Made by a program: the position numbers and the translations under genes. Shown piece by piece: positions 11,744 to 32,891 of a DNA stretch of 64,000 nucleotides. Origin of the DNA: Bacteroidota bacterium (GTDB taxonomy: Bacteria; Bacteroidota; Bacteroidia; B-17B0; Aurantibacillaceae). Every line of letters begins with the position of its first letter. The stretch's first letter is position 1. The stretch lies in assembly GCA_013297775.1 (NCBI GenBank), contig JAAFIL010000002.1:1-64000 (forward strand). The letters run 5' to 3'. The notes beneath the pieces are model-generated. The model saw nothing but the letters and a program-made list of their open reading frames with translations, was not told where the DNA came from and did not search any database.

Positions 11744-13264
11744 ATGTTCAGTAAAAATTATATTTCATTCAGGTTCATCATCATTTTTTTATTCAGTACA
11801 TTTTATATTAACGCACAAGTAATTACACAAACAGTAACCTATGCCGCAGGGATTCAAACGTTAGCAATACCTGCATGTGTACCCTTTGTTACTATTACTT
11901 GCTATGGTGCCAGCGGTGCCGACGGAACAATAGGTGCCAATAACGCACCCGGTGGAGTAGGCGGTAAAGGCGCTATTGCAAGAGGTGTGTATTCGATTAC
12001 GCCAACAGCTTCTGTTTTAAATATTTATACAGGTGGAGTAGGCACAGGTACATTAGGAGGATTTAACGGCGGTGGCGGTGCCGGAAATGGTTTGGGTATT
12101 GGCGGTGCAGGCGGCGGTTCTACCGATGTTAGAGTAGGGGGCATTGCAATTGCTAACCGCATTATTGTAGCTGGCGGCGGCGGCGGCGGCGGCAATGCGG
12201 GTTGCGCAACCGCTACCATAGGTGGTGGCAATGGTGGCAATGGCGGTGGCAGTGCAGGGTTAAATGGCAGCAGCATAACCTCAGGAACAGACATTGTAAC
12301 AGGCGGATTTGGAGGGGTGGGTCAAACCGCTGGAACTTTAGCAATCGGTTGTTCAACCTTAGTTACAGCCGCCACAAACGGCGGAGGAAATACTTCGGGC
12401 GTTGGTGGCAAAGGCGGTTTCAGTACTTCTACATTGTGTTGTTGCAGTTCTATTGTTAGCGGCGGCGGCGGCGGCGGGGGTTACCGTGGCGGCGGTGGTG
12501 GTGCGGCAGGTGCAATGGGTTCGGCTAATTGTGTATTAAGCGACCGAGCCTCGGGTGGCGGTGGCGCTGGGGGGACTAACTTTTTTGCAGCAGGTTTTAC
12601 TTCAACCCTAGTGAGCGTAGCCTCATTTACAGGAAATGGTTTTGTAGAAATTGCGTATCAAACAGTACCTGTGCCAACCATAACGGTTAACAGTGGCACT
12701 GTGTGCGAGGGTTCGGCTTTTAGCATCGTGCCTTCGGGAGCTGTTTCCTACATCTATCAAGGCGGTTCAGCTTCGGTGAGTCCGCCATCTACTTCTATTT
12801 ATACAGTAGTTGGTAACAACGGCTTGAACTGCGTCAGTGCGTCTGTATCCAGCACGGTTACTGTTATTCCACGACCCGTTCTATCCATTTCTCCAGCAAA
12901 CAATCCCATTTGTTCTAACACCTCTTACATTGCCATACCCGCTGGTGCTAATATTTATACGTTCTCCATTGGTCCCTCTTCTGTTATTGGCACAACAGCC
13001 AATATACCTGGCCCAACCAATACCACAACGCTAAACATTGTAGGAAGCAATACCCTAACCACTTGTTTAAGTTTACCCATTTCAGTAGTGTTCACCGTTA
13101 TTCCACGCCCAGTTGTAACCGTTAACAGCGGCTCTATTTGTGCGGGCAATTCTTATACCATTGTGCCAAGTGGTGCGGTTACTTACAGCATTCAAGGCGG
13201 TTCATTTGCCGTTAGCCCAACAGCAATTATTCGGTTACAGGAACAGGAACAAACGGCTGTTTGA
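11744..13264 (+). CDS. glycine-rich T9SS surface protein, N-terminal part (frameshifted gene)
   Basis: 506 codons before a premature stop. After a signal peptide (about 1-24, INAQ) comes a glycine-rich region (about residues 35-300, with runs of up to nine Gly) of the Gly_rich type, introduced by VTITCYGASGADG. Three Ig-like or PKD-like repeats of about 80 residues follow, each opening PxxxVNSG.xCxG and containing SYxxxGG. The last residues, IIRLQEQEQTAV, break the repeat pattern, and the next frame restores it. It is one gene with 13261-13767. The likely product is a secreted, cell-surface structural or adhesive protein; its role is inference. Confidence 0.7.
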   Translation: MFSKNYISFRFIIIFLFSTFYINAQVITQTVTYAAGIQTLAIPACVPFVTITCYGASGADGTIGANNAPGGVGGKGAIARGVYSITPTASVLNIYTGGVGTGTLGGFNGGGGAGNGLGIGGAGGGSTDVRVGGIAIANRIIVAGGGGGGGNAGCATATIGGGNGGNGGGSAGLNGSSITSGTDIVTGGFGGVGQTAGTLAIGCSTLVTAATNGGGNTSGVGGKGGFSTSTLCCCSSIVSGGGGGGGYRGGGGGAAGAMGSANCVLSDRASGGGGAGGTNFFAAGFTSTLVSVASFTGNGFVEIAYQTVPVPTITVNSGTVCEGSAFSIVPSGAVSYIYQGGSASVSPPSTSIYTVVGNNGLNCVSASVSSTVTVIPRPVLSISPANNPICSNTSYIAIPAGANIYTFSIGPSSVIGTTANIPGPTNTTTLNIVGSNTLTTCLSLPISVVFTVIPRPVVTVNSGSICAGNSYTIVPSGAVTYSIQGGSFAVSPTAIIRLQEQEQTAV

Positions 13265-13767
13265 GTTTACCCGCCATTAGTAATGTATCAGTAGCACCTT
13301 TGCCCAACATTGGTATTCAAAGTTCGGCTAGTTTAATTTGTGTTGGACAAAGTGCCGTTTTAACCCCAAGCGGAGCCGTAAGTTATAGCATTAGTGGCGG
13401 CAACTTTACCATTAGTCCTACGGTTACTACTTCTTACACCATTCAAGCAACAGCCGCTAGTTCGTGTAGCAATTCGGTGGTTTATACGCAAAATGTAAGT
13501 GCTTGCACATCGCTTCAATCCACCTCTCAAAACCTTGAGCGCATTAAAGTGTATCCCAATCCAGTTCAAACATTTTTAAACATCGAAGTAAATGCAACCA
13601 CTTCTGCTACACTAGAAATTATTAATCCATTGGGCCAGGTTATTCAACGCATTAGTTTAGAAGAATCTCTCTATCAATTGAACATGGCAGAATTAGAGTC
13701 AGGGTTGTATTTATTAAAAATTAATCAATCTAATGAACAACGTATTATTAAAGTTATTAAAAATTGA
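13225..13767 (+). CDS. C-terminal part of the same T9SS protein, with sorting domain
   Basis: From 13225 the +1 frame reads NYSVTGTGTNGCLSLPAIS, which completes the broken repeat. A fourth Ig-like repeat (PNIGIQSSASLICVG..) and a typical T9SS type A sorting domain of about 75 residues follow: IKVYPNPVQTFLNIEV, GQVIQRISL, GLYLLKINQ, RIIKVIKN. A separate translation start at GTG/ATG near 13261 would give an exported domain with no signal peptide, so it is not an independent gene. Restoring one A in the short A-run near 13224 would join both parts into about 675 residues. Confidence 0.7.
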   Translation, partial: NYSVTGTGTNGCLSLPAISNVSVAPLPNIGIQSSASLICVGQSAVLTPSGAVSYSISGGNFTISPTVTTSYTIQATAASSCSNSVVYTQNVSACTSLQSTSQNLERIKVYPNPVQTFLNIEVNATTSATLEIINPLGQVIQRISLEESLYQLNMAELESGLYLLKINQSNEQRIIKVIKN

Positions 13768-16800: not shown

Positions 16801-16808
16801 TATCTTTG
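16801..16808 (+). promoter_or_regulatory. -7 box TATCTTTG of the tetR - exporter operon
   Basis: TATCTTTG matches TAnnTTTG. It overlaps the TTG at 16806, which rules that codon out as a start, and sits 24 bases before ATG 16833. Confidence 0.45.
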
Positions 16809-16832
16809 TTAAAAGTAAGGATATTAAACAAA

Positions 16833-17504
16833 ATGAACGTTTTTGTTAACTTAAAAATAAATCAAAAACTATTTTTGAAAAACCCTGTCGAAACAGAGTT
16901 AGGTCGAAAAATAGTTGGTCAATCTATTTTTTTAATTGATAAAATTGGTTTTGAAACCTTCACTTTTAAAAAATTGGCTCAAGCCATTGAAACTACCGAA
17001 GCCAGCATTTACCGCTATTTTGAAAACAAGCATCAGTTATTATTATATTTAACTTCTTGGTATTGGGGATATCTCGATTTCAAAATTGAATACAGCACCA
17101 CCCATTTAAAATCGGCACGGCAACGTTTAAAACTCATTTTAAAAATAATTACCGAAAATCAAGTTGATGATTTGAATGATGAATACATTCACTTGGGTAG
17201 GCTTCAAAAGATTATTGTTTCTGAAGCCACCAAATCTTACCTTGTAAAAAATGTAGATGACATCAATAAATACGGTGCATTTAGCGAATATAAAGCGTTA
17301 AGTCAACGCATCTGCAAAGCTATATTAGACTTAGACCCCAAAGCCCGTTACGCCAAATCTATTGCCAGTATGTTGCTCGAAACCGCTCGGCAGCAATTAT
17401 TTTTTGCCGAGCATTTACCAGCGCTAACCGATGTAAAAAAACATAAAAACGAAGAAATAGCACACTTGTTAGAGCATATTATATTTAATTTAGTAGAAGA
17501 ATAA
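16833..17504 (+). CDS. TetR/AcrR-family transcriptional regulator
   Basis: A 223-aa protein from ATG 16833. The N-terminal helix-turn-helix (about residues 30-75) shows the TetR pattern: LIDKIGFETFTFKKLAQAIE, then TTEASIYRYFENKHQLL. The C-terminal helical domain would bind ligand or dimerise and is not recognisably similar to a named subgroup. First gene of a five-gene run; the next start is 5 bases downstream. It probably represses its own operon, which encodes a CutA-like protein and a tripartite exporter. The inducer is unknown. I see no clear palindromic operator in the 30 bases around the -7 box. Confidence 0.85.
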   Translation: MNVFVNLKINQKLFLKNPVETELGRKIVGQSIFLIDKIGFETFTFKKLAQAIETTEASIYRYFENKHQLLLYLTSWYWGYLDFKIEYSTTHLKSARQRLKLILKIITENQVDDLNDEYIHLGRLQKIIVSEATKSYLVKNVDDINKYGAFSEYKALSQRICKAILDLDPKARYAKSIASMLLETARQQLFFAEHLPALTDVKKHKNEEIAHLLEHIIFNLVEE

Positions 17505-17509
17505 AACGT

Positions 17510-17824
17510 ATGATAAATGTATGTATAGCCCATCCCCATGAGGCAAATGCCCGTAAAATGGCTAACGAATTATTGCAACATAAGCTAGTAGCGCGTTTGA
17601 GTATAGATTATGACAACCATGTATTTGAAGTAGATGAGAACGATGTTGTACGCGAAGTTTCTATTTCATTGGTAACCGCACAAACAAAAGCCATTTTGTT
17701 TCAAGAAATTTTAAACTTTGTTCATCAAAATTATGGCGATGACATTCCCGTTTATTCGCTGCCAATTACGCAAGGTAACGAAGAATTAACCCGCATTATT
17801 CGCGAAAAAACAAAAAAATTTTAG
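17510..17824 (+). CDS. CutA-like protein
   Basis: A 104-aa protein with a CutA/PII-like ferredoxin-type fold pattern: an N-terminal strand, AHPHEANARKMANELLQHKLVAR, then SIDYDNHVFEVDENDVVREVS, then DIPVYSLPITQGNEELTRIIREK. Bacterial CutA1 forms trimers and has been tied to divalent cation tolerance, though its biochemistry is unsettled. The usual Trp-rich motif is replaced by YDNHVFEVDEN, so it is a divergent member. It is placed tightly between tetR (5-base gap) and the ABC exporter gene (3-base gap), which suggests a link to that exporter, perhaps sensing a metal. Confidence 0.65.
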   Translation: MINVCIAHPHEANARKMANELLQHKLVARLSIDYDNHVFEVDENDVVREVSISLVTAQTKAILFQEILNFVHQNYGDDIPVYSLPITQGNEELTRIIREKTKKF

Positions 17825-17827
17825 ACA

Positions 17828-19858
17828 ATGATTCAGTTAAATGCCTTTCATATTTACCACGCGGTTTATGGCTTACCCGAGTTTATAACCGTATCCGAAA
17901 CTTTACGAAAACAAATGAATAAGGCCAAGTTAAAACCTTATTCGGATTTATTTCATTTGGCCGAGCAGCTAAACACCGAACAAATTGGTAATGCCGTTCA
18001 TTTTCAAGAAAGCCACGTTAGCATTAATCAGTTAATCGAGTTTGGCGAAAGTTCTTCTTTACCGCTTATTGTATTTAAAGGAGAACCTGGTAGTTTACAA
18101 GCATTTTTGCTAATTCACAACCAAAAGGAAATAACAGAAATTCATTTAGGAAACGGCGCAACAAAAGTTTTTAAAACAAATGTTTACGATTACCAAGCCT
18201 TGTACATTACCGAAACGGCAAGCAATTGCATTACTATTACTCCCTTCGAAAGTGTTTACACTAAATTAGTGCAAGATAAACCCGATTCTAATGCGTTTAA
18301 AAAATTGTTTTCGATTCTGCGCATGGATCGGAAAGATATTTTTAATTTATTTTTCTACGCAACCTTAGGAGGTCTCATTAGTTTGGCTATTCCGCTTGGG
18401 ATTCAGAGTTTAATTAATTTTTTGCAAACCGGACAAATTACCGCCAGTGGTGTTATTCTCATTGCCATTATTATTTTCTCGGTGCTGTTTAGTGGCTTAC
18501 TGCAAATTATTCAATTGTGGTTAATGGAAATATTGCAACAACGCTTGTTTGCCAAAGTAGCCCTCGATTTTGTTTACCGTTTACCTAAACTTTCGTTCGA
18601 GAAAAATAAACATTTATTTGGTCCCGAAGTGATGAATCGTTTCTTCGATATTGTTTCGCTTCAAAAAGGATTAAGTAGTGTGTTGATAGATTTAACGGCT
18701 TCCATTTTACAGGTTGTATTTGGTTTACTTATTTTATCGTTCTATCACCCAGTATTTATAGCCTTTAGTGCGTTTCTTATCATTATCATTTATTTAATTA
18801 TTCGGTTTACTGGTAATAAAGGTTTAGAGTACAGCTTAAAAGAAAGTAAAATAAAATATTACACGGCTTCTTGGTTACAAACGGTTGCTCGCAGTCGTTT
18901 TTCGTTTCAAATGTCCGAAACAAATAATTTACACTCGCGCCGCATGGATACGCTGGTGGGCGAATACATTATGGCACGAAAAAAACATTTCAAAGTTTTG
19001 GTAACTCAATATTTAGCGTTTGTTATTTTTTCAGTATTAATTACGGGTGGTTTACTTATCATCGGGTATTATTTGTTATTAGCCGAAGAGATAACACTTG
19101 GTCAATTTGTAGCAGCCGAAATTATTATTTTATTAATTGTAAACTCGGTCGAAAAAAGTATTCTTAAAATTGAAAGCGTTTACGATATATTAACAAGCGT
19201 CGAAAAAATAACGCAAGTGGCGGCCTTACCGCTCGAACAAAATAAAAATGGAATTGCGTTTAAAAAGCAAGAGCCTTTACACTTAAAATTAGAGCAACTT
19301 AAAGTTGGAAACACGACCATAAATGAAGCCATTAATTCGGGGCAATACATTAGTTTAATATTAAACAATCAACTCGAAAAAGATGAATTGGTAGAAATTT
19401 TAGCAAAAACAAATACTCATTATTCGGGGAGTATTTTTGTAAATGGTATCCATTACGAGTTATTGGATAAGTCGTTTTTAGTGAAAAAAATTGCTTTCTC
19501 AACCGAGCAAGAGTTGTTGTTTGATGGAACTATTTTAGAAAACATAACCATGGGGCATCACGATATTGATGAACACCAAGTGCGGCAAGTATTTACCGAT
19601 TTGAATGCTTTAGAATTTATTAATCGCTTTCCACATGGATTTAATACCGAAATTATTGGTGGTCACTATGCCGACCAACACGAACTTTATCACTATTGTT
19701 TATTAGCCCGAATGATTTTGAAGAAAGCTGGCATTATGGTTTACGATACAGCTTTATTACCTCAAACCATTCTCAAAAAACAAGTAGAAAATTATTTAAA
19801 AACGATTAATAAAGATGCAATTATCATTGCTTTAAATTTAAAAGAAGATGGACAGTAA
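17828..19858 (+). CDS. type I exporter-like ABC protein with degenerate ATPase domain
   Basis: A 676-aa protein. Residues 1-160 form a soluble N-terminal region that could be a relic of a C39-like domain. A six-helix ABC exporter domain spans about 170-450. The nucleotide-binding domain (about 480-676) keeps the overall order (SGSIFVNG, LLFDGTILENITMG, FINRFPHGFNTEIIGG) but lacks the key motifs. There is no P-loop GxxGxGK; SGQYISLILNNQ stands in its place. The LSGGQ signature is YADQHELYHYC. Walker B reads IMVYDTALLP with no catalytic Glu, and the H-loop reads IIALN. ATP hydrolysis is therefore unlikely. It overlaps the hlyD-like gene by 11 bases. Export driven by another ATPase, or a non-transport role, is open. 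Confidence 0.8.
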   Translation: MIQLNAFHIYHAVYGLPEFITVSETLRKQMNKAKLKPYSDLFHLAEQLNTEQIGNAVHFQESHVSINQLIEFGESSSLPLIVFKGEPGSLQAFLLIHNQKEITEIHLGNGATKVFKTNVYDYQALYITETASNCITITPFESVYTKLVQDKPDSNAFKKLFSILRMDRKDIFNLFFYATLGGLISLAIPLGIQSLINFLQTGQITASGVILIAIIIFSVLFSGLLQIIQLWLMEILQQRLFAKVALDFVYRLPKLSFEKNKHLFGPEVMNRFFDIVSLQKGLSSVLIDLTASILQVVFGLLILSFYHPVFIAFSAFLIIIIYLIIRFTGNKGLEYSLKESKIKYYTASWLQTVARSRFSFQMSETNNLHSRRMDTLVGEYIMARKKHFKVLVTQYLAFVIFSVLITGGLLIIGYYLLLAEEITLGQFVAAEIIILLIVNSVEKSILKIESVYDILTSVEKITQVAALPLEQNKNGIAFKKQEPLHLKLEQLKVGNTTINEAINSGQYISLILNNQLEKDELVEILAKTNTHYSGSIFVNGIHYELLDKSFLVKKIAFSTEQELLFDGTILENITMGHHDIDEHQVRQVFTDLNALEFINRFPHGFNTEIIGGHYADQHELYHYCLLARMILKKAGIMVYDTALLPQTILKKQVENYLKTINKDAIIIALNLKEDGQ

Positions 19859-21197
19859 TACTCACACCCCCATATCCTTGCATTTACTGAAAACGCCAAG
19901 GTTTATGCGTCGCTTTAGCAACGTGTTATGGATGCTTATTGGTTTCTTGGTTATCTTTTTATTTTTGCCATGGACTCAAAATATAAACGTGAAAGGAAAA
20001 CTCACGTCTTTGAGTCCGGCTGATAGACCGCAAACCATACAAAGTACCATTGCTGGCCGAATTGAAAAATGGTTTATTATGGAAGGGCAGCCCGTAAAAA
20101 AAGGCGATACCATTTTGTTTTTGAGTGAGATTAAAGACAAGTATTTTGATCCCGATTTTTTAATTCGTATTCGGGAACAAATTAAAGCTAAAGAAAGTGC
20201 TTTAGGAAGTACTCGCCAAAAGAGTGAGGCCCTTGGTAAACAAATTAAAGCGTTAGAAAGTGGGTTACAATTTAGTTTAAATAAAGCGCGTAACAAAGTA
20301 ACGCAAGGCAAACTTAAAATTCAAAGTGATAGCATTGATTTTATAGCGGCAAAAACCAATTATACAATTGCTAAAGATCAGTTTGACCGACAAGTAAAAT
20401 TATTTGAACAAGGTACAAAAAGTAAAACCGAACTCGAAATGCGCGAGTTAAAATTTCAAGAGGCACAAGCTAAGTTATTGAGTAGCGAGAATAAATTTTA
20501 TACGACCAAAAATGAATTTTTAAATGCCATCATTGAGTTAAATAGTATTGAAGCGGAGTACTTAGATAAAATAAGTAAAAGTGAAAGTGAGTTAAACTCT
20601 ACTTTAGCTTATTTTTATGACACCGAAGGACAAATTAGTAAAATGAACAATGAGTTTGCCAATATGCAAATTAGAAATTCGTTTTATTACATTACGGCAC
20701 CACAAGATGGTATTGTTGTTAAAGCCCTCAAAACAGGCGTTGGCGAAACCATTAAAGAGAACGATGAGGTAGTGAGTATAATGCCCAACAATCCGCAGTT
20801 AGCGGTTGAAGTGTATGCTAACGCTATGGATGTAAACTTATTAAACATTGGCGATGAAATTCGCGTTCAGTTCGACGGTTGGCCAGCACTCGTTTTTAGC
20901 GGTTGGCCCGGCGTTACCTTTGGTACGTTTGGTGCTAAGGTAACAGCCATTGACCGATTTGATACCAAAGGCAAGTTCCGTATTTTAGCCACGCCCCTCG
21001 AAGATAAAGCTCACATGTGGCCGCGTATTTTGCGCTTAGGCACGGGCGTTAAAGGCTGGGCCATGCTTAACACAGTTCCTATTTGGTACGAGTTATGGCG
21101 ACAATTAAATGGGTTCCCTCCCGATTTTACCGAAAGTTTTTCGGAAGAGGCTAATTATATTAAACAAGCAAAAAAAGCAAGTAAAACCGATGAGTAA
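19848..21197 (+). CDS. HlyD-family membrane fusion (periplasmic adaptor) protein
   Basis: A 449-aa protein with one membrane segment (about residues 24-42, LWMLIGFLVIFLFLPW). A barrel/lipoyl half (IEKWFIMEGQPVKKGDTIL) follows, then a long coiled-coil hairpin (about 105-270) and the second lipoyl half (YYITAPQDGIVVKALKTGVGETIKENDEVVSI). This is the standard adaptor of type I or tripartite export systems, linking the inner-membrane exporter to a TolC channel. The start overlaps the ABC gene by 11 bases and the end overlaps the tolC-like start by 8, so all three are translationally coupled. Confidence 0.88.
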   Translation: MDSNTHTPISLHLLKTPRFMRRFSNVLWMLIGFLVIFLFLPWTQNINVKGKLTSLSPADRPQTIQSTIAGRIEKWFIMEGQPVKKGDTILFLSEIKDKYFDPDFLIRIREQIKAKESALGSTRQKSEALGKQIKALESGLQFSLNKARNKVTQGKLKIQSDSIDFIAAKTNYTIAKDQFDRQVKLFEQGTKSKTELEMRELKFQEAQAKLLSSENKFYTTKNEFLNAIIELNSIEAEYLDKISKSESELNSTLAYFYDTEGQISKMNNEFANMQIRNSFYYITAPQDGIVVKALKTGVGETIKENDEVVSIMPNNPQLAVEVYANAMDVNLLNIGDEIRVQFDGWPALVFSGWPGVTFGTFGAKVTAIDRFDTKGKFRILATPLEDKAHMWPRILRLGTGVKGWAMLNTVPIWYELWRQLNGFPPDFTESFSEEANYIKQAKKASKTDE

Positions 21198-22626
21198 ACA
21201 AAATAGCATACTTCTATTTTTTAGTACAATTCTTTTTTTGGTAAGTTCGCCTCTATCAAAAGCACAAAGCGATACCGTGTTTTTAGGAGTAAATGGGTTT
21301 ATGAATTATCTTAAAAATTACCATCCGATTTTACAAAAGTATCGTTTGGTAACTGAGCAGGCCAAACAACAACTTTTACAAAGCAAAGGGCAGTTTGACC
21401 CCAATGTAAAAGTTAATTACGATCAGAAAAATTTTGAAGATAAAAACTACTACAATGATTTGTATGGGCAGTTAAAAGTGCCCACATGGTATGGACCCGA
21501 TTTTAAATTGGGTTATGAAAACAACAGTGGACAGTTTATAAATCCAGAAAGTTTAACGCCTAGCGAAGGCTTACTAAGTGCAGGGTTTAGTATGCCATTG
21601 GCGCAAGGGCTTATTATAAACGACCGTTTGGCCACTTTAAAACAGGCGAAGATATTTGTGCGAATGGCAGGAGCCGAACGTACCAAGTTCATTAATAAAT
21701 TTTTGTTTAGTGCTATTAAGCAGTATTGGGAGTGGTACGTTAATTACAACAAATTACAACGCTTTAACGAGAGTTATGCCTTTGCCAATCAACGGTATTT
21801 ATTAAGTGTGCAGCGCGCTTTACAAGGCGACCTTGCACCCATTGATACAGTAGAAGCGGCTATTCAACGGCAAAATATGTTGATGAACCGCACTAATGCC
21901 GAAGTAGATTATTTTAATGCTACCATGATGCTGAATAACTATTTATGGAAAGATGAACAAACGCCATTAGAATTGAGCAGTAATGTTGTGCCTCTAAATA
22001 GTAACGAAACCGATCCGCGTTTTATTACCGATACGCTTCAACGGTCTTTGCAATGGGCGGGTTTAAATAATCCTGAAATTCAAAAGTTACGGTTTAAAAT
22101 AGATCAGTTAGATGTAGAAAAACGCTTTGCTCAAAATAAATTATTACCAAAAATTAATTTAGATTATAATTGGTTGAGTTCTTATAACAATTTCTCGGAT
22201 GCGAAAAGTGGGTTTAATGCCAACAATTCAAAACTTGGTGGTTCGTTGGCAATGCCCATTTTTTTGAGAGCCGAGCGCGGAAAATTAAATCAAACGAAAA
22301 TAAAATTGTTAGAGGCCAATTACGAATTGCAACAAGGGCAAAAAGAGTTAGATGCTGGATTAAAGGCTATTGCCAATGAGTGTAATGGTTTGTGGCGGCA
22401 AATTGGACTTCAAGATAATGTTGTTCGAAACTCGGTGAAACTAAGAAATGCCGAACAACTTAATTTCGACAATGGCGAAAGTTCTTTGTTTTTAATTAAT
22501 ACCCGCGAAACGAGTTTATTAAACAATCAGTTAAAATTTTACGACATCATTGGTAAATACGAAAAAGCCAAAGCTTCGTTTTATGTAACTGCTGGCAATT
22601 TGGGGCAAGTGTATGGCATTGAGTAA
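21190..22626 (+). CDS. TolC-family outer-membrane channel protein
   Basis: A 478-aa protein. ATG 21190 (ATGAGTAA overlapping the upstream stop) is chosen over an upstream in-frame start because it gives a clean signal peptide (about 1-25, LSKAQS). The mature protein has long helices and the repeated TolC half-structure: FMNYLKNYHPILQKYRLVTEQAKQ near the start, then RALQGDLAPIDTVEAAIQRQ, and NFDNGESSLFLINTRETSLL in the second half. It forms the outer-membrane end of the export complex with the two preceding products. Last gene of the operon. Confidence 0.87.
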   Translation: MSKQNSILLFFSTILFLVSSPLSKAQSDTVFLGVNGFMNYLKNYHPILQKYRLVTEQAKQQLLQSKGQFDPNVKVNYDQKNFEDKNYYNDLYGQLKVPTWYGPDFKLGYENNSGQFINPESLTPSEGLLSAGFSMPLAQGLIINDRLATLKQAKIFVRMAGAERTKFINKFLFSAIKQYWEWYVNYNKLQRFNESYAFANQRYLLSVQRALQGDLAPIDTVEAAIQRQNMLMNRTNAEVDYFNATMMLNNYLWKDEQTPLELSSNVVPLNSNETDPRFITDTLQRSLQWAGLNNPEIQKLRFKIDQLDVEKRFAQNKLLPKINLDYNWLSSYNNFSDAKSGFNANNSKLGGSLAMPIFLRAERGKLNQTKIKLLEANYELQQGQKELDAGLKAIANECNGLWRQIGLQDNVVRNSVKLRNAEQLNFDNGESSLFLINTRETSLLNNQLKFYDIIGKYEKAKASFYVTAGNLGQVYGIE

Positions 22627-22685: not shown

Positions 22686-22691
22686 CTATAA

Positions 22692-22850
22692 TACCAAGTG
22701 AACTTATATTTTAGTCCAATCTACTCGTTCTTTTTCATCATTACTTCTTTAAAAATTTGTTCCGTAGGCTATGCTATGCAACAAATTTTTTCATCGTACT
22801 GATAAAAAATAACTTCGCATCTTTGGACTAAAATATAAGTTCACTTGGTA
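22692..22850. repeat. 159-bp palindromic element with perfect 28-bp inverted ends (relative of R1)
   Basis: Begins TACCAAGTGAACTTAT and ends with its exact inverse; the ends match over 28 bp (22692-22719 and 22823-22850). The interior is also an imperfect palindrome. Length, TACCAA/TTGGTA ends and the central CCGTAGGC..TGCTA block match R1 read on the other strand, so it is a diverged member of the same superfamily. Flanking TA is compatible with an IS630/Tc1-type target. No coding capacity. Confidence 0.8.
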
Positions 22851-22956
22851 TAAATTCAGCAGCAGCCCAATGCGAACCTTTGCGTGATTTTGTGAAGTTG
22901 AGGGTACAAAAATTCAATGAATTTATGAGCCAGCGTTTACGGAAGCAGATTAAAAG

Positions 22957-23167
22957 GGGTCAGGGTTAAAAGTTGGGGATAAAGTTGGAATTAATTTTAA
23001 CGACAAAATAAGCGAGCCAAACTCGCTTTCGTATTGAAATGAGAATAAGTCGCCAACGCACTATCCTACGTTGACTTATTACCCATTTCAACACGACATC
23101 AAATAAATCATATTTATTTTAATTTTTTGATTTCATTTTTCTAATCCCCAACTTTTAACCCTGACCC
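22957..23167. mobile_element. 211-bp MITE with 24-bp perfect inverted repeats and 8-bp target duplication
   Basis: The left end GGGTCAGGGTTAAAAG.. (22957-22980) is repeated exactly in inverse at 23144-23167. The element is flanked on both sides by ATTAAAAG (22949-22956 and 23168-23175), an 8-bp target-site duplication. Inside are two hairpins, AGCGAG-CCAAA-CTCGCT at 23011-23027 and a longer one at 23034-23091. No transposase frame fits. It must have been moved by a transposase encoded elsewhere. Confidence 0.85.
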
Positions 23168-23192
23168 ATTAAAAGCCACCGAAGCCATTACA

Positions 23193-31046: not shown

Positions 31047-32891
31047 ATGAAGCAACTCTTCTCAGTATTAAAATATACGAAAAACTACAAACGTTATGTG
31101 GTTTTAAATGTTGTCTTCAACATTTTATTTGCCATTTTTTCGGCACTAACTTTAGCATTAGTGGCTCCATTTATTCAACTCATTTTTAAAACCGATATGG
31201 TTGAGTTGAATCGCATTGCCGCCCTGGGCATAGAGCCATTCCACCTCAGTGGCGATTATTTTAATAAAGGATTTAATTACCTTTTTGCTAAATTAATTGT
31301 GGTGAAAGGTAAAGAAGGAGCTTTACTACTTATTTGCTTTGCCGTGGTGGTAGTTACTCTTTTAAAAAATCTGAGTCGTTATATGGCCATGTATTTTATT
31401 GCGCCCATTCGTAATGGGGTGGTGCGCGATTTGCGAAATAAAATGTATAACAAAGCCATGCAATTGCCGCTTAGTTATTATAGCGAAGAAAAGAAGGGCG
31501 ATATTATGAGCCGCTTAACTACCGATGTGCAAGAGATTGAATGGAGCATTATGCAAACCTTAGAAATGATTTTTAGAGAGCCTCTAACCATTATCATTTT
31601 ATTTAGCATCATGTTGGCCATTAGTCTTAAACTAACTTTATTCATTGTGTTGTTACTGCCCATTGCCGCTTTGTGTGTGGTTCTCATTGGTCGTCAACTT
31701 AAAAATGCTTCGCGTCGAACCAAAGAAACATTAGGGCAATTGGTGAGTGTAATGGAAGAAACTTTAGGTAGCTTAAAAATAATAAAAGCGTTTCGGGCCG
31801 AGCCACACATGAAAACTAAGTTTGAAACCCTTAACGAAAAATTTTATAAGCAATCGGTAAGCGTTTATCGCCGAGTAGATTTAGGTTCGCCACTTAACGA
31901 AACTATTGTGATGGCGATACTGATGCTCATTTTATATTTGGGTGGGCAAATGGTTTTTGAAAGCAATGGCACTTTTGCCGCACTATTTATTACTTATTTT
32001 GGATTGGCCTCGCAACTTATTCCGCCAATTAAACAAATTACGCAATCGTATAATAATATACAAAAGGGCTTGGCTAGCGAAGAACGCATCAACAAAATTT
32101 TAGATGCCGAAATCGGAATTTTAGAAGCCAGTAATCCTCAAAGTTTTACAAAATTGCAAACGGGCATCACATTTAATGCGGTGAGTTTTTCTTACAAAAA
32201 AGGAGATGAAGGGTATGTATTAAAAAATATAAACTTATCTATTGCGAAAGGTAAACGCGTGGCTTTAGTTGGCCAAAGCGGCAGTGGCAAAACCACCTTA
32301 GCCGATATGATTTTAAGATTTTATGATGCCGATAAAGGTGCTTTGTTGATAGATGGGATAGACATTCGTGCTTTAAAATTAAACGATTTACACGCCCGCA
32401 TTGCGGTGGTTACTCAAGAAAGTATTTTATTTAACGACACCGTTTATAACAATATTGCTTTTGGTTTAAACGATGTAACAACCGAACAAGTGATGCAAGC
32501 CGCTCAAATTGCGAATGCGCATGAGTTTATTACCCAATTGCCTTTGGGCTACGAAACCACCATTGGCGACCGTGGTGGCAAATTAAGTGGTGGTCAGCGG
32601 CAACGGTTAAGCATTGCCCGTGCGGTTTTGCGTAATCCCGATATTTTAATTTTAGATGAGGCCACCTCTGCTTTAGATACAGAAAGTGAGCGCATGGTGC
32701 AAGATGCGTTGAATAAGTTAATGGAACAACGAACCAGTTTAATTATAGCCCACCGTTTATCTACCATAATGCACGCCGATGAAATTATAGTATTGCAACA
32801 TGGCGAAATCATTGAGCGCGGCACACATACCGAACTTTTTCAAAAAAATGGTGTGTACCGAAAACTATGCGATATGCAAAGCTTTGGCTAA
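31047..32891 (+). CDS. MsbA-like ABC exporter (ATPase fused to membrane domain)
   Basis: A 614-aa half-transporter. Six helices span about 20-325. The ATPase domain is complete: Walker A GQSGSGKTT, Q-loop VTQESILF, signature LSGGQRQRLS, Walker B ILILDEATSALD, and H-loop IIAHRLS. Similar proteins flip lipid A or export drugs and lipids. A role as the essential lipid A flippase MsbA is plausible but the sequence alone does not prove it. Its intact motifs contrast with the degenerate exporter at 17828-19858. Monocistronic; repeat R1 follows 28 bases after the stop. Confidence 0.9.
   Translation: MKQLFSVLKYTKNYKRYVVLNVVFNILFAIFSALTLALVAPFIQLIFKTDMVELNRIAALGIEPFHLSGDYFNKGFNYLFAKLIVVKGKEGALLLICFAVVVVTLLKNLSRYMAMYFIAPIRNGVVRDLRNKMYNKAMQLPLSYYSEEKKGDIMSRLTTDVQEIEWSIMQTLEMIFREPLTIIILFSIMLAISLKLTLFIVLLLPIAALCVVLIGRQLKNASRRTKETLGQLVSVMEETLGSLKIIKAFRAEPHMKTKFETLNEKFYKQSVSVYRRVDLGSPLNETIVMAILMLILYLGGQMVFESNGTFAALFITYFGLASQLIPPIKQITQSYNNIQKGLASEERINKILDAEIGILEASNPQSFTKLQTGITFNAVSFSYKKGDEGYVLKNINLSIAKGKRVALVGQSGSGKTTLADMILRFYDADKGALLIDGIDIRALKLNDLHARIAVVTQESILFNDTVYNNIAFGLNDVTTEQVMQAAQIANAHEFITQLPLGYETTIGDRGGKLSGGQRQRLSIARAVLRNPDILILDEATSALDTESERMVQDALNKLMEQRTSLIIAHRLSTIMHADEIIVLQHGEIIERGTHTELFQKNGVYRKLCDMQSFG

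Follow-up and report, generated by a model that had tools for sequence, protein, structure and literature searches.

An ABC exporter-like family of the Bacteroidia with degenerate or deleted nucleotide-binding domains, predicted to work without ATP hydrolysis

The gene at positions 17828-19858 of the window, that is, of the whole 64,000-nucleotide stretch of Bacteroidota DNA analysed here, encodes an ABC exporter of the HlyB/PCAT type with a transmembrane domain (TMD) and a nucleotide-binding domain (NBD), and the ATPase motifs of the latter have been lost. The first-pass annotation had described this loss in the single gene; judging from the relatives now aligned, the finding is larger, as some of them have deleted the entire NBD, and the family in the Bacteroidia very probably no longer hydrolyses ATP. 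We put the probability that these proteins are secondary transporters, driven by protons or a gradient, rather than scaffolds, gated channels or exporters energised by an ATPase in trans, at about 0.5. No description of this exporter family was found in the literature searched, in which subscription journals were thinly covered.

The exporter-like gene and its operon

Five genes in the order tetR, cutA-like, ABC-like, hlyD and tolC, joined by overlaps or by gaps of a few bases, make up the operon. These genes and the parts of the exporter-like protein are as follows.

16806..17504, + strand: TetR/AcrR-family regulator (Pfam TetR_N, 32.6 bits; in-frame ATG at 16833)
17510..17824, + strand: CutA1-like protein with a PII-like fold (Pfam CutA1, 22.3 bits, cut-off 22.4)
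17828..19858, + strand: ABC exporter-like protein with an NBD predicted to be hydrolysis-dead (open reading frame, Pfam, NCBIfam, predicted structure, motif scan)
17828..18283, + strand: N-terminal degenerate domain, aa 1-152 (about 150 aa before the TMD; no Pfam match)
18284..19237, + strand: six-helix ABC exporter TMD, aa 153-470 (Pfam ABC_membrane; helix pLDDT about 90)
18584..18643, + strand: region of coupling helix 1, aa 253-272 (eroded in the fusions that lack an NBD)
18875..18931, + strand: region of coupling helix 2, aa 350-368 (eroded in the fusions, and shorter there)
19118..19120, + strand: Glu431 in TM6 (about 100% conserved in NBD-bearing and NBD-less members)
19238..19855, + strand: degenerate NBD, shortened C-terminally, aa 471-676 (alignment, model)
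19361..19387, + strand: former Walker A, LNNQLEKDE, aa 512-520 (motif column alignment)
19670..19696, + strand: former ABC signature, ADQHELYHY, aa 615-623 (motif column alignment)
19733..19759, + strand: former Walker B, IMVYDTALL (Asp retained, Glu replaced by Thr)
19829..19846, + strand: former H-loop, ALNLKE (motif column alignment)
19848..21197, + strand: HlyD-family periplasmic adaptor (Pfam HlyD_3 and Biotin_lipoyl_2; TIGR01843)
21190..22626, + strand: TolC-family outer membrane channel (Pfam OEP, 92.4 bits)

The exporter-like gene has an ATG start and encodes 676 aa without internal stops, and its open reading frame spans exactly the interval given in the first-pass annotation. The Pfam ABC_membrane model matches with 30.9 bits and so passes its threshold, but ABC_tran, for which 25 bits are required, gives 13.5 bits, and the gene is not among the 41 matches obtained when the whole genome was searched with ABC_tran. 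The peptide-export ABC models of NCBIfam cover both the TMD and the NBD. The NBD had been said to align end to end with active ones; the NCBIfam models do span it, but it stops just past the H-loop and is about 40 residues shorter than the NBDs of relatives. The predicted structure, built on an alignment of 55 sequences, is a confident ABC exporter fold (pLDDT close to 90 for the greater part of both TMD and NBD) with PCAT1 as the nearest PDB structure; by sequence, the closest solved relatives of the TMD are ComA, HlyB and PCAT1, and its identity to the TMDs of other families reaches 47%. The N-terminal domain, fast evolving and modelled with low confidence, occupies the place of a C39-like domain, and some HlyB/PCAT systems likewise carry a domain before the TMD.

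Pattern scans of the full-length protein gave no match to [AG]xxxxGK[ST], LSGGQ or hhhhDE, and neither a P-loop nor LSGGQ was found in any of the three forward frames; identical tests recover all three motifs in an intact exporter in the window (31047-32891). As no forward frame holds a P-loop or LSGGQ, the motifs are neither displaced nor frameshifted, and this explanation, which the first-pass annotation had named as a way in which its reading could fail, was rejected. Column by column, LSGGQ, the Walker B Glu and the H-loop His are gone as reported, while the P-loop Lys, reported as lost too, is still present as K518 in a column in which all glycines and the Ser/Thr have disappeared; in two other species of the genus (G014 and G036) the Lys has been lost as well. 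The Q-loop column reads STEQE, and the segments SGSIFVNG (533-540) and LLFDGTILENI (563-573) are present as quoted earlier. The window protein thus lacks the Walker A, LSGGQ and Walker B motifs of an active ABC transporter. Measured against type I secretion systems such as HlyB-HlyD-TolC and those of the PCAT kind, the likeness lies in the type IV ABC exporter TMD, the HlyD adaptor and the TolC channel within one operon, and the difference in the absence of functional ATPase motifs.

The HlyD and TolC partners were recovered as described. The start of hlyD overlaps the exporter-like gene by 11 bases and the ATG of tolC at 21190 overlaps the end of hlyD, a longer tolC frame starting at 21109. 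Three further species of the genus (G027, G014 and G036) share this order of five genes, and all four species are without an intact P-loop, so that the motif loss is conserved together with its operon context. Among the loci of relatives, tetR adjoins the exporter gene in most, HlyD is retained in nearly all and TolC in most. No substrate gene of the exporter was recognised.

Other elements of the window may be recorded here. Just downstream of the operon lies a 161-bp palindromic element (22691-22851) with 29-bp perfect terminal inverted repeats, a MITE-like repeat of which about ten long copies at 85-100% identity and many fragments occur elsewhere in the genome. A second palindromic element of 217 bp (22954-23170), with 27-bp inverted repeats (GGGTCAGGGTTAAAAGTTGGGGAT), has five near-full copies and one partial copy elsewhere in the genome at 96-100% identity. 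At 11744-13767, two open reading frames of 506 aa and 168 aa, which overlap and are not in the same frame, encode a glycine-rich surface-type protein, the shorter ending in a sorting-like C-terminal domain, and the pair could be a single gene broken by a frameshift.

Motif loss and NBD deletion across the family

An initial search of the genome contigs with the single protein gave no match, and an alignment used as query yielded 80 named loci. With a profile of the TMD, the family was found in 97 out of 395 genomes sampled evenly across the phylum. Of the 210 distinct TMD sequences gathered, 175 carry an NBD, comprising a Bacteroidia set of 163 and an outgroup of 12 from other classes. The P-loop GK is retained in 147 of the 163 Bacteroidia-set NBDs, Walker B DE is found in five, the H-loop His in four and the Q-loop Gln in eight, and none of the 163 combines GK, DE and His. 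In the 12 outgroup NBDs, GK is present in all, DE in 11 and His in eight, with all three together in eight. LSGGQ is absent from all 175, the closest form being LSTGQ in the outgroups. Intact motifs in the same context, which the first-pass annotation had taken as a sign of local decay, are thus confined to the outgroup classes of the phylum and do not point to decay; the alignment rather traces the catalytic loss to the root of the Bacteroidia set and not to the window genome. As the H-loop mutant H662A of HlyB has less than 0.1% activity (PMC9751043), the family's loss of hydrolysis can be strongly inferred, and the retention of the P-loop where the catalytic residues have gone suggests that selection has favoured binding of the nucleotide but not its turnover. 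Several further branches besides the window clade show a change in the P-loop Lys or in the residues around it. In one subgroup (family f31; L244, L246, L247, L249, L254, L257 and L260) Asn, Glu or Asp takes the place of the Ser/Thr after the GK, a change which, from the sequence, should impair the binding of Mg-ATP.

The genus of the window carries the family in 23 of 40 species. Four of these have a dead NBD, and in the remaining species the TMD and HlyD are joined in one open reading frame of about 740-840 aa from which the NBD is absent (17 distinct TMD-HlyD sequences, genes cut by contig ends left out). Since TM6 ends in the cytosol and HlyD opens with a helix running from cytosol to periplasm, such a fusion would be topologically coherent, and as HlyB and HlyD occur at 6:6 in the HlyA system (PMC9751043), a 1:1 fusion would keep that ratio. 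In a second clade the gene stops at most about 10 residues after the TMD, and hlyD overlaps it or starts within 70 bases; this TMD-only clade comprises 17 distinct sequences in three families, counted from the examined part of a larger list of open frames of TMD-only size in many more genomes. Its loci are L161-L166, L224-L232, L239, L241, L243, L248 and L262. One further candidate (L242) has its NBD in another frame and was left out, the break being ascribed to a frameshift or to a mistake in the assembly. Compared with the HlyB/PCAT systems, the family has therefore lost the hydrolysis residues in the whole Bacteroidia set, the P-loop in the window clade, and the entire NBD in two lineages, once as a TMD-HlyD fusion.

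An orphan NBD of the family was not found in 12 NBD-less genomes searched with the family NBD profile. Four control genomes, which carry the domain, give 226-321 bits with this profile; in the twelve the score does not exceed 171 bits, and the top matches there fall in other full-length exporters. A 282-aa ABC ATPase encoded near one TMD-only gene (L166) has an ordinary P-loop and an LSLGQ signature, and was rejected as an orphan NBD because it belongs to another family. That relatives have deleted the entire domain speaks against an indispensable role of the NBD, even one as a pseudo-ATPase scaffold.

In the TMD trees (FastTree and mixture model; INDEPENDENCE), the fusions, the TMD-only members and the window clade form three clades with full support each, and the HlyD tree agrees. 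In approximately unbiased (AU) tests on TMD and HlyD together, a single clade of fusions and window members is rejected (p = 0.0075), as is one of fusions and TMD-only members (p = 1.5e-89); with the TMD alone, the fusion and window grouping is not rejected (p = 0.26), and all these p values are weakened by the choice of groups after the first tree had been seen. The idea that the dead NBD of the window is the step before the fusions of the same genus was discarded, as the TMD, HlyD and concatenated trees separate the two. The phylogenies thus indicate that the NBD has been deleted in two independent lineages, and that the P-loop loss in the window clade is separate from the fusions.

Selection, coupling surfaces and the source of energy

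Between the window protein and its relative in G027, 87% of the TMD and 61% of the NBD are identical, with no indels. Synonymous sites are saturated, so that pairwise dN/dS between the window gene and its relatives is unusable, and closer pairs elsewhere in the family were taken instead. These show strong purifying selection: omega of the TMD is 0.034 in an NBD-less fusion pair, 0.049 in a TMD-only pair and about 0.02 in NBD-bearing pairs. The C-terminal part of members with a degenerate NBD gives 0.02-0.10, which indicates that this domain, where retained, is still constrained, usually less than the TMD.

Conservation of the coupling helices was expressed as identity in the regions of coupling helices 1 and 2 relative to the TM helices. 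The ratios are 1.16 and 1.05 in the outgroup, 0.99 and 0.85 in members with a P-loop, 0.81 and 0.76 in those with a dead P-loop, 1.11 and 0.73 in the TMD-only clade, and 0.33 and 0.24 in the fusions. By this measure the docking surface for an NBD appears to be lost in the fusions only. In the TMD-only genes coupling helix 1 is as conserved as in NBD-bearing relatives, and no docking partner was found for it. This retention is unexpected if nothing docks there, and counts against an ATP-free mode of action.

Members with and without an NBD alike conserve residues E234, E431, E442, K443 and D453; the Glu431 column holds Asn in aligned ComA. The acids are also present in the outgroup with its near-intact NBDs, where E234 is Asp or Glu, and are hence no consequence of NBD loss; their gain after that loss was rejected, the acids being ancestral. 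They may have a structural role, and they are, from their conservation, candidate ion-coupling residues.

Taken together, we propose that the window protein is the inner-membrane component of a tripartite complex of TMD, HlyD and TolC that resembles type I secretion systems and would operate without ATP hydrolysis. In a first step in the Bacteroidia, the catalytic residues would have been lost and the P-loop retained, ATP binding probably persisting for some time in a structural role or as a signal for gating; later, several lineages, the window's included, would have lost the P-loop and two would have deleted the NBD. The conserved working part would be the TMD dimer beneath HlyD and TolC, with transport most likely driven by the proton motive force or the substrate's own gradient, and the conserved buried TMD acids would be the candidate coupling residues, as in peptide import by SbmA. 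The closest mechanistic precedent is, by analogy, this NBD-less, ABC-TMD-derived protein, which is proton-driven via a glutamate ladder and has no coupling helices; YddA, its ABC cousin, carries part of that ladder (PMC13316013). The NBD-less members of the family resemble the SbmA/BacA (SLiPT) proteins in their ABC-derived TMD without an NBD, in the loss of coupling helices (in the fusion clade) and in conserved TM glutamates (PMC13316013), but they differ in their export-type operon with HlyD and TolC and in the lack of extra TM0 helices. The absence of an NBD that marks SLiPT proteins holds for the fusion and TMD-only relatives, while the window protein keeps a degenerate one. Pfam SbmA_BacA had no match in the NBD-less members tested, and the only transporter-domain match of the TMD, in these and in the window protein, is ABC_membrane (below cut-off in the fusion tested); by membership this is therefore not a SLiPT.

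It is conceivable, and in our view unlikely, that the TMD merely anchors and organises HlyD under TolC and moves nothing, the substrate entering from the periplasm or the membrane. The near-constant presence of HlyD, the frequent presence of TolC and the fusion of HlyD to the TMD are all compatible with such a role, for which no ATPase would be necessary. However, HlyD has a membrane anchor of its own, a six-helix domain held at omega 0.03-0.05 is much for an anchor, and charged residues in or near the helices are conserved at about 100%.

ABC exporter folds can work other than as pumps, as in CFTR (ABCC7), which retains hydrolysis at one of its sites and works without tripartite partners. A comparable pore, opened by ATP binding in those members that keep the P-loop, and in the others by a different cytosolic ligand or partner (in this genus the CutA-like protein), would account for the retention of GK in spite of the lost hydrolysis residues. 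All four dead-NBD species have the CutA-like gene in the operon, and it lies beside or near at least 10 fusion genes of the genus, although these belong to different exporter clades. Relatives in G010 and G014 exceed the Pfam CutA1 cut-off that the window protein narrowly misses, and a profile of the operon-linked set matches solved CutA structures (E 3.7e-9). Solved CutA proteins are trimers. In 15 genomes of the genus, the Pfam CutA1 profile gave just one weak partial match outside the operon gene. In two separate clades of the exporter, the CutA1-like genes either precede the exporter gene or follow tolC (L031-L033, L042, L043, L045, L047, L050, L195-L198 and L200). A role as regulatory partner of the exporter is possible; the more specific arrangement in which, in this genus, a trimeric CutA-like protein docks as a regulatory gate beneath the three-fold complex, at the former NBD site, would be highly improbable. 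Against a gated channel in general stand the lack of any CutA neighbour outside the genus among the contexts listed, and the loss of the signature loop which contacts bound ATP across the dimer, and we rate it as rather improbable.

There is a slim chance that ATPase activity is supplied in trans, either through pairing with an intact ABC exporter in a heterodimer, or by a stand-alone NBD docked on the coupling helices. The coupling helix 1 retained in the TMD-only clade would suit such an arrangement, other ABC exporters are present in every genome searched, and there are known heterodimers in which one site is degenerate (PMC12038006). Heterodimeric exporters such as TM287/288, BmrCD and MsRv1273c/72c share with the family a replaced catalytic Glu, often by Asp, and a degenerate signature; in contrast, they keep one active site, whereas the NBDs of the family are all degenerate and the operons hold neither a partner subunit nor any second ABC gene. 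The lack of an orphan NBD in the 12 NBD-less genomes and the eroded coupling helices of the fusions argue in the same direction.

Local decay of a pseudogene being lost, for which the roughly threefold faster amino acid change of the NBD against G027 (dN 0.305, TMD 0.097) could speak, has a negligible probability in view of the identical state in four species, the absence of stops and indels against G027 at saturated synonymous sites, the pattern across the family and class, and the purifying selection on dead and NBD-less members, all of which bear out the earlier impression of a selected gene.

ABC exporters and type I secretion systems are textbook ATP-driven machines. The present family occurs in roughly one in four of the sampled genomes of this phylum, and its Bacteroidia members have lost the hydrolysis motifs. 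Among Bacteroidia proteins for which the annotation would read ABC transporter ATP-binding protein, many are probably no ATPases. The natural series from near-intact through ATP-binding only and dead to deleted and fused NBDs offers a test of how the TMD, HlyD and TolC function without ATP. It is a tentative proposal, which we consider somewhat doubtful, that ABC exporters have repeatedly been turned into ATP-free secondary exporters via HlyD and TolC, independently of SbmA. If true, the family would be the export counterpart to SbmA, the established ABC-derived secondary transporter, which is an importer.
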